Source: an uncultured Caulobacteraceae bacterium (GTDB lineage: Bacteria > Pseudomonadota > Alphaproteobacteria > Caulobacterales > Caulobacteraceae). From it: a DNA stretch of 64,000 bases. Positions 48,394-53,367 of this stretch are shown one piece after another (within the stretch, counting starts at the first letter, position 1; the number at the start of each line of letters is the position of its first letter). Position numbers and translations under genes: made by a program. The notes under the pieces are model-generated. The model saw nothing but the letters and a program-made list of their open reading frames with translations. It ran no database searches and was not told where the DNA came from. The DNA is taken from positions 372,001-436,000 of the forward strand of contig CAKZPF010000003.1 of the NCBI GenBank assembly GCA_937138625.1, in the 5' to 3' direction.

Positions 48394-48880
48394 CCATGCT
48401 GTCCCCAGAGGCTGATGATCCGGACCCACCCGAGCTTTTGTCACCACCCTTGGTAAAGGCACTCAGGATGCCCATCAGATCCAGGGCCCCTTGGGTGTAC
48501 TGAAAGCTGTCACCTGGGGCCATCATGTCGTCTTCAGCGCCGGGATCGATGCTGAGATGCACATCCCCCAGCAACCCGCGCGAAGTGATTTTGGCCACAG
48601 AATCCACAGGGATGCGGTGATCCTCGCCGATGCGCATGGCCACGCGGGCCTGATAAGTCACGGGATCAAGCGACAACGAGGCCACACGGCCAACCTTTAC
48701 GCCTGCGATTTGCACATCCGAACCCACACCAATGCCACCGGCTTCGCCGAACTTGGCAATGACCTCATAGCCCTCGCCAGAAGGGCCACGATCCTCGAGA
48801 CCCAAGGCATAGGTCAAAAACGCCCCGGCGGCCAACACCACCAAAAACCCAACGATAACTTCGGCTGTCCGTCCTGACAT
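48374..48880 (-). CDS. mlaD: MlaD-family lipid-transport substrate-binding protein
   Basis: MlaD proteins are anchored in the inner membrane and form the hexameric MCE ring that passes phospholipids between membranes. Residues 8-28 form the single N-terminal anchor (VIVGFLVVLAAGAFLTYALG). The MCE domain follows (KFGEAGGIGVGSDVQIAGVK, VGRVASLSLDP, AKITSRGLLGDVHLSIDPG), and a Gly/Ser-rich tail ends the 168 residues. The ATG at 48880 overlaps the NDUFA12 stop (TAATG). MlaE and MlaF genes are not adjacent. This small form beside NDUFA12 is usual in alphaproteobacteria. Confidence 0.92.
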   Translation of the reverse strand: MSGRTAEVIVGFLVVLAAGAFLTYALGLEDRGPSGEGYEVIAKFGEAGGIGVGSDVQIAGVKVGRVASLSLDPVTYQARVAMRIGEDHRIPVDSVAKITSRGLLGDVHLSIDPGAEDDMMAPGDSFQYTQGALDLMGILSAFTKGGDKSSGGSGSSASGDSMDALGEF

Positions 48881-49278
48881 TATGGCACCCACGCTTGGTA
48901 ATGATCTTGCTGTTTTTGCGCACCGGTGTCGTGCACAATGGCCCCCTTGGGCCGATAGGCCCGGCCACTGCCGGTGAAATTCGGTTGATGATCTGCCTCC
49001 CAGGGCTGGCGCGCCAGGGGCTGTTCCGAGGGGGGCACATCGGTGATGTAATGCATCCAGGCATGCCACTCGGGCGGGATTTTCGATGGCTCGGCATAGC
49101 CTGTGTAGGTCACATAGCGGCGTTTGCGGCCGTCATAGCTATCCTTGGCATCGCGGGCTTCGAAATAGGTGTTGCCAAACTCGTCTTGCCCGACCTTGCG
49201 CCCCCGCCGCATCAGCGTCCAAGAGGTGCCGACGGTCGAGCCGTTCCACCACGTGAAAATTTTACTGAACACACCCAT
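48880..49278 (-). CDS. NADH:ubiquinone oxidoreductase accessory subunit NDUFA12-like
   Basis: The 132 residues match NDUFA12 (B17.2), an accessory subunit at the joint between the arms of complex I, shared by alphaproteobacteria and mitochondria. WWNGSTVGTSWTLMRRGRKV, DEFGNTYFEARD, RRYVTYTGYAEPSKIPPEWH and AWMHYITDVPP are classic landmarks. It heads the NDUFA12-mlaD-DUF2155 unit on the minus strand and is not with the nuo genes, as is usual. Confidence 0.95.
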   Translation of the reverse strand: MGVFSKIFTWWNGSTVGTSWTLMRRGRKVGQDEFGNTYFEARDAKDSYDGRKRRYVTYTGYAEPSKIPPEWHAWMHYITDVPPSEQPLARQPWEADHQPNFTGSGRAYRPKGAIVHDTGAQKQQDHYQAWVP

Positions 49279-49494
49279 ATCGTGCGACTCCGAACTGTTG
49301 ATCGCGGAAATATGGCAGGCGTTGGGTCGCGGGTCTAGACCCCCAGCAGAAAATCAAGGGGAAATCACCGGGAAAAACACAGATTTTCCACCCCGCCGAC
49401 TCAGCGCACGGTGGTGTCAATGACAGATACGAGGGACAGATGTGATCAGTCGGCGAGGCCTATTGCTGATCCAGACCATCAAGGGGCGAATACG

Positions 49495-51948
49495 GTGAGC
49501 ACACGGAGATCGTCAACACGGAACCTATTGGGAAAATTCGAACCAGCAGAGAGCCTTATCGACTTCGAAATCCGCGATCTTGATGACCGCCAACTGCGCA
49601 CACCCGTGACCTTTACCACTGCCATGGCCCTGGCCTGGGCCGAGCTCGCTGACGAGCCGGAGGCTGACCAGATTGATCTCGAGCCGGTTTTTGTCACCCA
49701 AGCCGCCCGCTTCAGTGCCAAAACCAATTTGGGCGCAAAGGTCCGTGACACGACACCTTTGGCAGCCCTGTTCGCCCAAGGCCTTGTTGCCCCCATGCCC
49801 CCTGCGCCCGAGGAACTGAGCGGTGGGGACCGTATGGCCGAAGACCTGTGGCTAGGCGAGCAAGCCGCCATCGCCTTGATGGCCGGATCGCGCCTGATTC
49901 AGCGCCGCCTAGAGGCCATTACAAATGCCATCACCCACTGCGACGGAGATCCAGAAGCCTGTGCCGACCCCAAGAAGAACGAGCGCCTGGCCCGTGAAAT
50001 TCTGATCGCCAAGGCCGCCTGCGTGCCCGAGGCCGCCATTGCGCGCACCCTTAACGAAGCGCGCCAGCTGTCGTCATCGGATGCGCCCTTGCCCGCCATG
50101 CCGTCATTTGACCTCGATTATGGCTCGCCGGGGTATCGGGTGGACGCCGATTTTGGCTGTTTACGCCTGGCCAAGCCCAGCCCCCGGGCCCAGGCCGTCG
50201 CCCACGAGACCGGACGTTTACGTCTGAAACTGAACGGCCAGACCGAAGATTTTGGCAGCGCGCCTCGGTTGGCGGTGAACGTGCGGGCCTTTTGGGATGG
50301 CCAAGGGGTGAACTGGCCCCAAGCCCATGCGGTGCTCGAGGTCGTGGCCCGCGCTCTGACCACGGATGGGGTGGTGGTGCTGGCCGGTTTGCCGCACCTG
50401 ATTTTGGCCCATGGCCTGGTCTATGACAGTGCGCCCGCGCGATCGTTTCTGAAAAGTTTGATCCAGCAGATGTCCAGTACGCTGCCGGAAACGTGCCGAC
50501 TGACGGTTTGGGACGACGGGAATACCGCGTTGCGTCTGGGGCTGTCGCACACGGGTCTTGCGCCCGCGCCCCTGGTCTCGGCGGTGGAAAGTGGCGAGGG
50601 ACAGATCCTGATGAGCCTCAGTCCCGAGACCATCAGCGCCCTGAGGCACCACGGCGCCAGCGACCAAGTGGCCGCCGTCACCGATGCGCTTTTGGGGCAA
50701 CGCGCCCTGCCCCCCGCCCTGCGCGACCGTTTGGCCGCCCTTGGGTTTACCGATCTTGAATTTGCGCAGCTGGAAGCAGCTTTGCCCCAAGTCCACAGTC
50801 TGCAAGATCTGTTGGACAGCAAGACATTGGACGCAGGCTTTCGCGCGGATGTTCTGGACCTGAAACCGGATCAGCCGTTTGACCTAGACACCTTGGGTTT
50901 AGACCTCGTGGCCCTAACTTCCGATCTGTTCGGTCAGGCGTCGGTGCACGGGCTGGATATACCTGATGACCACGACATTCACCAGGTGCTGCGTGCGCCC
51001 GAGGCCTGGTCGCCCGAGGCCCATATCCAGCTTCTGGCCTGTTTGCCCCAGGACAACCGCGACATCATCGCCCTGCCCAACGACATCACACGCCAGGCCT
51101 TTGCGGCGCTTGTGGGTCAGGCACAGGCCCTGAAGCTGCCCAGCGTACATTTGCGCCGCGCCACCAGCCAAATTTCTGACCCCGGTCTGGGGGCTGATTT
51201 GGATCTGATCGAGCCCACGGTGGGCCCGCCTCCGGAACCTGAGGTGATTGAACGCGTGGTGGAAAAGCCCGTTTTCCAAGGCCCCGCCCGCCACAAACTG
51301 CCGGACCGGCGCAAGGGTTATATTCAGAAATCCAGCGTCGGCGGGCACAAGGTCTATTTGCACACCGGCGAATATGATGACGGCGAACTGGGCGAGATTT
51401 TCATTGATATGCACAAGGAAGGGGCGGCTTTTCGGTCGCTGATGAACAACTTCGCCATCGCCATTTCCATCGGCCTGCAGTATGGCGTGCCTCTCGAAGA
51501 ATATGTCGATGCCTTTGTCTTCACCCGCTTTGAGCCCGCAGGCCCTGTGGAAGGCAATGACACCATCAAATCGGCGACCTCGATTTTGGATTATATTTTC
51601 CGTGAGTTGGCGGTTTCTTATCTGGGTCGGGCGGATCTGGCCAATGTCGACCCCGAAGCCCTGAGCGCCGATGGCTTGGGCAAGGGATCCGGTGAAGGCA
51701 AGCCCATTGATCCGACAGCCTTGATCTCCAAGGGGTTCAGCCGGGGTCACGCCGACAATTTGGTGCTGTTGCCATCCGTCAAAGCGGCCTTAGAACAAGC
51801 GAACCTCGAGGGCGGACAGGCCTGTCCGGCGTGTGGGGCCTTTGCCCTGTTGGATGCCGATGGCCACAAAACTTGCGAGGCCTGTGGGGCCAGCACAGAC
51901 GCCGACAAAGACAAAGGCCCAGATCACTCATCGGACCAACGGGCCTGA
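49495..51948 (+). CDS. NrdJ-like protein: diverged core with intact TSCPD and zinc-ribbon C-terminus
   Basis: The last 210 residues match the C-terminus of B12-dependent ribonucleotide reductase NrdJ closely: [20 protein letters not shown] (from residue 605), [39 protein letters not shown] and a CPAC...CEAC zinc ribbon (about 777-800). The 600 residues before it are diverged. Short stretches echo the end of the reductase barrel ([29 protein letters not shown]), but no active-site cysteine motif or glycine-rich nucleotide loop is seen. At 817 residues it is shorter than NrdJ (about 1200). I infer a non-catalytic paralogue. I prefer the GTG at 49495 with AAGGGG 8 nt upstream; an ATG at 49420 is the alternative. 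It may well be annotated as nrdJ. Confidence 0.8.
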
Positions 51949-52027
51949 TGACGATTTGGGGTTAACAGATGGCATTGAATTTGCTGACATTGGGGCAACG
52001 GGAACCCTTAACCACGAGTGTATCAAT

Positions 52028-52510
52028 ATGAAACATCTGATTGCCGCTGTGTCTGTGATGGTTTTGGCCACGCCAGCCATGGCCCAGAACGCTACCCACA
52101 TCGCCAAAGCCCAAGCGGGCAAAAGCTGCGCCGGCTGCAACCTGTTTCAAGCCGAGATGTCCGACACAGACGTCACCGGCAAAAGTTTCGCGGGCTCGCG
52201 TCTGCGCCAAGCAGACTTCAGCTTCGCGATTGCTAACACGGCTAATTTTTCGCGTTCTGACATGCGGGACGTCGAGGGCTATGGGATCCGCGCCACCTCG
52301 GCCAATTTCGCCTATGCCAATTTGACCAATGCTTCGTTTGTTGGGGCCTATTTGCGCGGTGTGAATTTCAAGGGCGCGAACCTGACCGGCGTGAACTTTG
52401 CGGGTGCGGACCTGACCCACGCCCGCGGCCTGACCCAAGACCAACTGGACGCCGCCTGTGGCGATGAGTCAACGGTTTTGCCCAAGGGCCTAAGCCTGAA
52501 AAGCTGCTGA
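52028..52510 (+). CDS. Exported pentapeptide-repeat protein 1
   Basis: A 160-residue protein with a signal peptide MKHLIAAVSVMVLATPAMAQ. The mature part begins KAQAGKSCAGCNLFQAEMSD and runs as pentapeptide repeats of the A(D/N)LxX type (GSRLRQADFSFA, ANFAYANLTNASFVGAYLRG, VNFKGANLTGVNFAGADLTH), which fold as a right-handed square helix. It ends in LTQDQLDAACGDESTVLP, a common capping segment, and carries two Cys pairs. The function of periplasmic members is unknown. It is the first of two tandem related genes. Confidence 0.85.
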   Translation: MKHLIAAVSVMVLATPAMAQNATHIAKAQAGKSCAGCNLFQAEMSDTDVTGKSFAGSRLRQADFSFAIANTANFSRSDMRDVEGYGIRATSANFAYANLTNASFVGAYLRGVNFKGANLTGVNFAGADLTHARGLTQDQLDAACGDESTVLPKGLSLKSC

Positions 52511-52569
52511 GCCCATCCGTTAACAAGTTTTAAGTGGTCAGGGCGCGCCCGGACGCGCAGACTGTGATC

Positions 52570-53367
52570 ATGACAAGGAGTCCTCAAATTTCATGGCTGG
52601 CGATGGCCGGTGCCGCTTGGCTGGTGACCACCGGCTTTGCGCCGACCTTTTTGGCTGATGAGGATCCAGCTCGTCGCGTCTCGTTGGGCGGGGCCTGCAA
52701 GGGCTGTGACCTGACGCGTGGCAATCTGAAGGGTGCCAAATTCAAAACCTGCAACTTCGCCAACGCCAAACTCAGTGGCATGGACCTGCGGGGGGCCAAA
52801 CTGGTGGCCGCCAATTTTGCGGGCGCCGAGATGTCTCGTGCTGATATGACCGAGGTTCAGATCACCGCCGCCAATTTGTCGGATGTGAACATTATGGGCG
52901 CTGCCATGGCCCAAGCCGACATCACCGGCAGCAATTTTTCCGGCAGCAAGGGCACCGGTGCCCGTTTTGAGGGGGCCGATATCACCGGCACCACCTTTGC
53001 CAAGGCCACCCTGTTGGGCAGTCAATTTGCCCAAGCGGATCTGGTGGGCGTGACCTTTCACCAAGCGCAATTGAACGGGGCGGATTTTTCCAATGCCGAC
53101 CTGAAAGGCGTCAGCTTTCACAAGGCGCAGATGTCAGGTGTTAATTTCAGCGACAGCCGGCTTGAGGGCGTCAACTTCTACAAGGCTACCCTTGATGGCG
53201 TGGATTTCGCGGGCTCGGACTGGACCGAGGTCAATCTCTCTGATGCGGATCTGTCGAATGTGCAAAACCTCAGTATGAGCCAGGTTCGCAACGCCTGCGG
53301 CACCCCTGAGACCCGCCTGCCCGCAACCCTGCGGGCGCAAGGCGTGCGGGTCAAGCGCTGCCGGTAA
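52570..53367 (+). CDS. Exported pentapeptide-repeat protein 2
   Basis: A 265-residue protein. A signal peptide (MTRSPQISWLAMAGAAWLVT, cleavage near FLA-DED) precedes GGACKGCDLTRGNLKGAKFK. Some 30 pentapeptide units follow, from about residue 45 to 240 (ANFAGAEMSRADM, ADFSNADLKGVSFHKAQMSG). The C-terminal cap SMSQVRNACGTPETRLP matches that of the neighbour. Both share the GxxCxGCxL start and the LTQDQLDAACG-like end, so they are paralogues of different length. The start is uncertain between 52534 (GTG) and 52570 (ATG); only the latter gives a clean signal peptide. Confidence 0.85.
   Translation: MTRSPQISWLAMAGAAWLVTTGFAPTFLADEDPARRVSLGGACKGCDLTRGNLKGAKFKTCNFANAKLSGMDLRGAKLVAANFAGAEMSRADMTEVQITAANLSDVNIMGAAMAQADITGSNFSGSKGTGARFEGADITGTTFAKATLLGSQFAQADLVGVTFHQAQLNGADFSNADLKGVSFHKAQMSGVNFSDSRLEGVNFYKATLDGVDFAGSDWTEVNLSDADLSNVQNLSMSQVRNACGTPETRLPATLRAQGVRVKRCR

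Follow-up and report, generated by a model that had tools for sequence, protein, structure and literature searches.

The gene at positions 49,495-51,948 (forward strand) of the window, the whole stretch of 64,000 nucleotides analysed here, encodes a protein of 817 residues (pseudo-NrdJ) which, judged by its sequence, descends from the vitamin-B12-dependent class II ribonucleotide reductase NrdJ and has lost its catalytic activity. The protein is probably kept for a function of its TSCPD (IscU-like) domain that needs neither ribonucleotide reduction nor an electron relay. The survival of this one domain, nearly unchanged on a dead reductase, suggests a separate, undiscovered job for TSCPD; Burnim 2022 (PMC9669993) describe this IscU-like domain in class II reductases and note the lack of any reported role for it. 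If the reading is true, an autonomous TSCPD would stand for a new family of non-catalytic proteins that act in dNTP control or in DNA/RNA biology.

Domain organization of pseudo-NrdJ

The open reading frame starts with GTG (an alternative GTG lies at 49,411) and its stop codon ends at 51,948; the alignable region of its relatives starts near 49,495. The TSCPD profile PF12637 matched residues 615-706 with 39.9 bits, above the Pfam cut-off of 22.8, and a CxxC...CxxC ribbon was seen at the C-terminus, which confirms the tail read in the first-pass annotation. The NCBIfam NrdJ profile NF005736 matched best at residues 583-761 (whole protein E 3.7e-98), but its 329.5 bits fall below the curated cut-off of 1737, against 1980 and 2301 bits for intact NrdJ controls, so that the protein does not score as a class II NrdJ.

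The same annotation had described the preceding ~600 residues as strongly diverged; the divergence stands, but a homologous NrdJ core was found within them. Residues 121-215 align to R. sphaeroides NrdJ (7b9p) in phmmer (E 4.9e-8), and the AlphaFold model of the whole protein (mean pLDDT 69) retrieved the same enzyme in Foldseek (E 2.8e-13, rmsd 10.8). VIA-align gave Z scores of up to 20.9 to many reductase alpha chains over model residues 16-559 (Z 20.9 across 321 residues for 6dqw; Z 20.5 across 345 of 618 for 1xjn). Residues 16-559 (49,540-51,171, forward strand) are predicted to form a shrunken reductase alpha-subunit barrel, in agreement with the degenerate fold that had been anticipated, and residues 1 to ~590 represent an NrdJ core in decay rather than sequence of other origin. 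The barrel is without the NPCSE, PQPHACFIQ and APTGTIGL segments. Two helical parts common to NrdJ are present on the forward strand, an insert at residues 121-196 (49,855-50,082) and a region after the barrel remnant at residues 373-480 (50,611-50,934).

The C-terminal part, also on the forward strand, comprises the hyperconserved TSCPD domain (residues 599-718; 51,289-51,648), a conserved ISKGFxRG...DN motif (residues 744-760; 51,724-51,774) and a zinc-ribbon-like tail (residues 774-800; 51,814-51,894) with four CxxC cysteines kept and two redox-relay cysteines lost. The model of this region is weak (pLDDT 64); its best structural matches lie at noise level (IscU at E 2.9, rank 45), with no confident structural relative of the TSCPD/C-terminal region found, and a profile search of the PDB returned no solved structure of this TSCPD type.

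A likeness to the N-terminal part of YebC/TACO1 was noticed in the helical insert of alphaproteobacterial NrdJ (window 49,855-50,082; L132:3986-4276); in pseudo-NrdJ it is weak. In an intact NrdJ the NCBIfam YebC profile matched with E 2.2e-6, and YebC-type structures were matched with E 0.025-0.09; the term YebC does not occur in either Burnim 2022 paper (PMC9669993, PMC9531940).

Loss of catalytic segments and of the C-terminal relay

Genes were classed as full or motif-less by the N.C[SG]E motif, so the split itself is by construction, whereas the results on tail, synteny, length and identity are not. The motif is present in 8 of the 53 matched genes, all of ~1200 residues or more, and missing in 45; the motif-less proteins have ~770-980 residues as compared to ~1200-1270 for full NrdJ. 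N-x-C-[SG]-E was not found in pseudo-NrdJ, which bears out the earlier remark that the cysteines of its N-terminal part form no NrdJ active site.

The alignment comprised 8 full and 41 motif-less proteins, including G024, which is cut at a contig end; G003, G008 and G031 (cut short) and G011 (broken by a stop) were left out. The NPCSE thiyl-site finger loop is missing in pseudo-NrdJ and in all 41 alignable motif-less relatives, and is kept in the 8 full-length genes. PNSPQWF, PQPHACFIQ, KSGGTTRRAAKM, SNPCSEYMFLDDTACN and APTGTIGLVMDCDTTGIEP are deleted or, in most motif-less rows shown, unrecognisable. The whole PQPHACFIQ segment is deleted in pseudo-NrdJ, and with it the barrel cysteine, whose position has a redox role. 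Leaving aside 599-755 and the four ribbon cysteines, only columns 401, 413, 417 and 486 are invariant among 24 aligned relatives, and no cysteine outside the ribbon is invariant.

The six-cysteine tail C..C-n-C..C..C-n-C is present in 68 of 68 full NrdJs and in none of 72 motif-less proteins, of which 67 keep CxxC-n-CxxC alone and five are cysteine-free there. The sets of 68 full and 73 pseudo rows include G538, and three genomes occur in them twice (L110/G012, L114/G021, L128/G006); the 72 tails are the 73 pseudo rows minus one that is truncated on its 3' side. Loderer 2017 assigns the corresponding positions in the tail of S. nassauensis NrdJ to four predicted zinc ligands and a redox pair. 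By these tail patterns the C-terminal relay is lost selectively; a C-terminal redox cysteine pair is not universal in class II.

The locus and its neighbours

Upstream, at 48,880-49,278 (reverse strand), lies the divergently oriented gene NDUFA12, by which the nrdJ locus can be recognised. Two pentapeptide-repeat genes with conserved synteny follow downstream on the forward strand, at 52,028-52,510 (start inferred from the reading frame) and 52,534-53,367. By Pfam, the window neighbours are a biotin-carrier-like protein, biotin carboxylase, Leu/Phe-tRNA transferase (aat), DUF2155, MlaD, NDUFA12, the two pentapeptide-repeat proteins and a class II tRNA synthetase (read as aspS).

The order accB-accC-aat-DUF2155-mlaD-NDUFA12(-)-gene-pentapeptide genes-aspS(-) was found around motif-less genes of families f1-f4, single members being sometimes undetected; NDUFA12 is present at 31 of 32 motif-less loci, and the one miss lies at a contig end. 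The same order surrounds three of the eight full NrdJs of the order, all in f5; the upstream block was not found at the other five loci, and the pentapeptide genes are present at seven of the eight. In other orders, too, NDUFA12 was seen ahead of the full NrdJ, at 11 of 21 loci, many of which have short flanks. Upstream and downstream order was read solely for the proteins used as queries.

Owing to the common NDUFA12 block, the motif-less gene looks like an nrdJ decayed in place rather than a duplicate, and this gene order indicates that it is at the ancestral locus of a vertically inherited alphaproteobacterial nrdJ. No Rfam match was obtained at 48,800-52,700. The consensus NrdR box was no more frequent than chance and had no match upstream of the pseudo-NrdJ gene.

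The pentapeptide-repeat pair (window 52,028-53,367) follows nrdJ or the motif-less form in most Caulobacterales loci examined, and none was detected beside the other-order loci compared.

Distribution among Caulobacterales and accompanying reductases

The source genome (2.02 Mb, 98.8% complete) falls in family f1 of Caulobacterales. Of 60 genomes of the order surveyed, 45 have the motif-less form, eight a full-length NrdJ, seven neither and none both. The motif-less form occurs in 32/36 genomes of f1, 6/6 of f2, 6/6 of f3 and 1/6 of f4, and the full-length NrdJ in 2/6 of f4 and 6/6 of f5. Across 299 genomes of the order, best matches below 1e-200 were restricted to f4 or f5, among the matches listed. 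G021 (Caulobacter sp.) and G006 (Phenylobacterium sp.) both fall in f1, like the window. In the genus of G021, taken to be Caulobacter throughout, 73 of 75 genomes have a match, three being fragments, and the motif is present at none of the 31 distinct loci read, two of which are truncated on the 5' side.

The motif-less gene of G011 (L020) has a stop in the matched stretch, which points to a possible recent loss or an assembly error.

A second, complete NrdJ had been expected in the source genome; the search for an intact or full-length NrdJ found none there, the NrdJ profile matching only this gene and, weakly, NrdA. The control for this search is weak, as Caulobacter vibrioides matches but so do E. 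coli and others, presumably via NrdA, and it shows only that nothing there exceeded the NrdJ cut-off. Being the sole ribonucleotide reductase of its genome would have spoken against a pseudoenzyme; the gene is not the sole one, since class I NrdA (NF006577, 1036.5 bits against a cut-off of 620) and NrdB are present. NrdB matched in 60/60 genomes (weakly in G043), as did the reductase barrel family.

Short NrdJ_Z-type class II reductases with NPC[SG]E occur in at least 10 of the 60 genomes (L037-L044, L053, L054) and beside the motif-less form in at least 9 of 45; they were apparently acquired separately from the ancestral nrdJ. In those genomes a partnership with a class II enzyme is therefore possible.

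Parallel and contrary cases

TSCPD is found in at least 182 of the 289 genomes of the class survey (E up to 1e-10), and it travels with NrdJ in most genomes examined, among the matches listed. Proteins of 278-289 residues that consist of TSCPD and short ends were found in four small genomes of other families (G330, G419, G527, G561); G419 and G527 are ~1.2 Mb genomes with a locus GC of 27-28%, SAR11-like by inference. NDUFA12 and accC adjoin these ~280-residue proteins in 3/3 loci checked, i.e. the same locus as nrdJ; CxxC is missing in two of the four, and their sequences hold no YebC-like insert. The reverse case is G224 (Caulobacterales; L208:7008-9713), with a 902-residue NrdJ that has the core motifs and the six-cysteine tail without TSCPD; the rest of its genome, a single contig, gave no TSCPD match either. 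The TSCPD-only proteins and the reductase of G224 indicate that the two parts are separable. Lineages that keep TSCPD without the reductase, together with the one reverse case, offer a direct genetic route to the role of TSCPD, dNTP synthesis aside.

A fused partner in the N-terminus (~60-62 residues) of the SAR11-like short proteins (L228:6144-6332) was considered and rejected, as it matched solely G419 and G527 (2 of 289 genomes).

TSCPD is not indispensable and can be lost. It has no match in 7 of 60 Caulobacterales genomes, and among 22 Caulobacterales picked for negative or odd earlier searches it is missing in 21, including 15 of the 16 near-complete ones. G530, G442 and G436 (L232, L233, L234) have motif-less NrdJ-derived reading frames of 1001, 967 and 731 residues, in stretches that also carry NDUFA12, with TSCPD missing or degenerate; the finger loop of G530 reads AGGGD where NPCSE is expected, its surroundings being kept. 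A dead NrdJ can thus persist without TSCPD, and TSCPD is not always the explanation of persistence. G538, of another family, has a 918-residue motif-less form with TSCPD and none of the tested neighbours.

In the TSCPD tree, a single origin of all coreless forms was marginally rejected (AU p 0.045) and a single origin within Caulobacterales was not (AU p 0.81); the domain is short, the tree has long branches, and it does not settle how many losses occurred.

Constraint on TSCPD and proposed function of the retained protein

The contrast between the two parts of the protein is evident from pairwise identities. For 60 random pairs of each kind, drawn from a wider set than the segment values below, TSCPD identity is 0.83 full-full, 0.87 pseudo-pseudo and 0.79 full-pseudo, as compared to 0.67, 0.32 and 0.28 for the N-terminal part. 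By segment (P0001 numbering), identity among motif-less proteins, among full proteins and between the two is 0.85, 0.88 and 0.82 for TSCPD 599-718; 0.73, 0.69 and 0.62 for the SKGF motif; 0.30, 0.75 and 0.26 for barrel 258-372; and 0.41, 0.79 and 0.42 for the ribbon. The dN/dS of TSCPD is 0-0.07 in 16 close pairs (one a duplicate and one with saturated dS), and that of the N-terminal part is 0.06-0.41 in close pairs with measurable dS. By these ratios the reading frame is under purifying selection, and TSCPD, free of any sign of relaxation, is held by the comparisons to the same constraint as in active NrdJs.

The first-pass annotation took the protein for a pseudoenzyme whose C-terminal module is conserved and whose barrel has degenerated, and this part of its proposal is borne out. 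In the explanation favoured here, the reductase would have died in a lineage that draws its dNTP supply from class I NrdAB; the shrunken dead barrel would now carry a TSCPD domain still under active-NrdJ constraint, which could do its job without ribonucleotide reduction or electron relay and whose ligand or partner would be something other than the NrdJ core. More specifically, and only tentatively, the protein may assemble in response to (d)NTPs and so tune the supply or use of dNTPs. This version is favoured because an active class II enzyme requires its C-terminal region to form oligomers with dATP/dGTP: S. nassauensis NrdJ from which residues 715-947 had been removed no longer formed the dATP/dGTP-induced tetramers, according to Loderer 2017, and that region would hold TSCPD and ribbon, given the identity with NrdJb that is stated for it and what NrdJb contains. 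The idea is borrowed from a distant enzyme, and the deleted region held more than TSCPD. The chances are evenly balanced for a wider reading, in which TSCPD is an autonomous module whose conserved function does not depend on ribonucleotide reduction; in active NrdJs this would be a second function, in Caulobacterales the module would be kept on a dead reductase, and in small SAR11-like genomes the gene would have been pared to the module.

The strongest rival, somewhat unlikely but to be taken seriously, holds that TSCPD serves outside nucleotide metabolism, for example by binding nucleic acids or ribosomes; the YebC-like insert would perhaps take part, and the link to NrdJ would be historical. 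It would account for the 62 TSCPD columns that are invariant across six very distant proteins (a second comparison was similar), more than a simple fold would be expected to need, and for the basic RRKGYIQK stretch in TSCPD as well as the weak likeness of the insert to YebC; the association of TSCPD with NrdJ, the noise-level structural matches and the absence of the insert from the ~280-residue proteins argue against it. That the gene is a decaying relic without function is improbable: the fast divergence of the N-terminal part, the interrupted G011 copy and the loss of the gene by some relatives agree with decay, but not TSCPD conservation equal to that in active enzymes, the N-terminal dN/dS values or the near-universal match in the Caulobacter genus.

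It is still less probable that the ribbon passes electrons to class I NrdA, in the way that split NrdJb serves NrdJa. The domain order is that of NrdJb (Burnim 2022 and the available text of Crona 2015), and the zinc cysteines are mostly kept. However, the six-cysteine relay is missing in all 72 motif-less tails and the ribbon itself in five, two of the ~280-residue proteins are without CxxC, and the class I NrdA of the source genome has a C-terminal CLACQ tail of its own. The proposal of the first-pass annotation that pseudo-NrdJ regulates or competes with a separate true NrdJ did not hold, and is very improbable. Pseudoenzymes often regulate active relatives, and an NrdJ_Z-type reductase is at hand in the minority of genomes noted above, but no NrdJ was found in the source genome (~1% of the assembly is missing), dead form and full-length NrdJ never occur together in the 60 genomes, and the synteny speaks for replacement in place. 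That the protein is still a reductase through an unrecognised active site, as its predicted barrel fold might suggest, is hardly credible with the finger loop and other catalytic segments deleted and no invariant cysteine outside the ribbon.

Comparison with known systems

Pseudo-NrdJ is nearest to the alphaproteobacterial full-length NrdJ (NF005736/PRK07562; R. sphaeroides 7B9P), with which it shares locus, domain order, position of TSCPD and ribbon, and predicted barrel fold; it is shorter and differs in the loss of the NPCSE finger loop, the PQPHACFIQ segment and the C-terminal redox pair. Split NrdJb of P. aeruginosa likewise has an IscU-like (TSCPD) domain and a zinc ribbon apart from the catalytic chain; it cooperates with NrdJa, and disulfide exchange is its task there (Crona 2015). 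Pseudo-NrdJ, in contrast, has a dead barrel attached and neither the redox pair nor an NrdJa-type partner; no catalytic NrdJa was found in the source genome (G000), class I NrdA being the only catalytic chain found. The C-terminal CRD of S. nassauensis NrdJd has the four CxxC cysteines in common with it and lies in a region that drives dATP/dGTP-dependent oligomers, but equivalents of the redox pair Cys-933 and Cys-945, as numbered in the accessible part of its description, are missing in pseudo-NrdJ.

Catalytically dead herpesvirus R1 homologues also have a reductase large-subunit fold without activity, but are viral, of class I lineage and without TSCPD. No description of a coreless NrdJ was recognised in the open-licence literature, as far as its accessible text extends.

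CCNA_01966 of the cell-cycle model C. crescentus is treated as a B12-dependent NrdJ in the available text of PMC6538847 and PMC5869019. The survey of the genus suggests that CCNA_01966 may be a motif-less form; if so, no B12-based dNTP making would proceed via that protein, contrary to the annotation used there.
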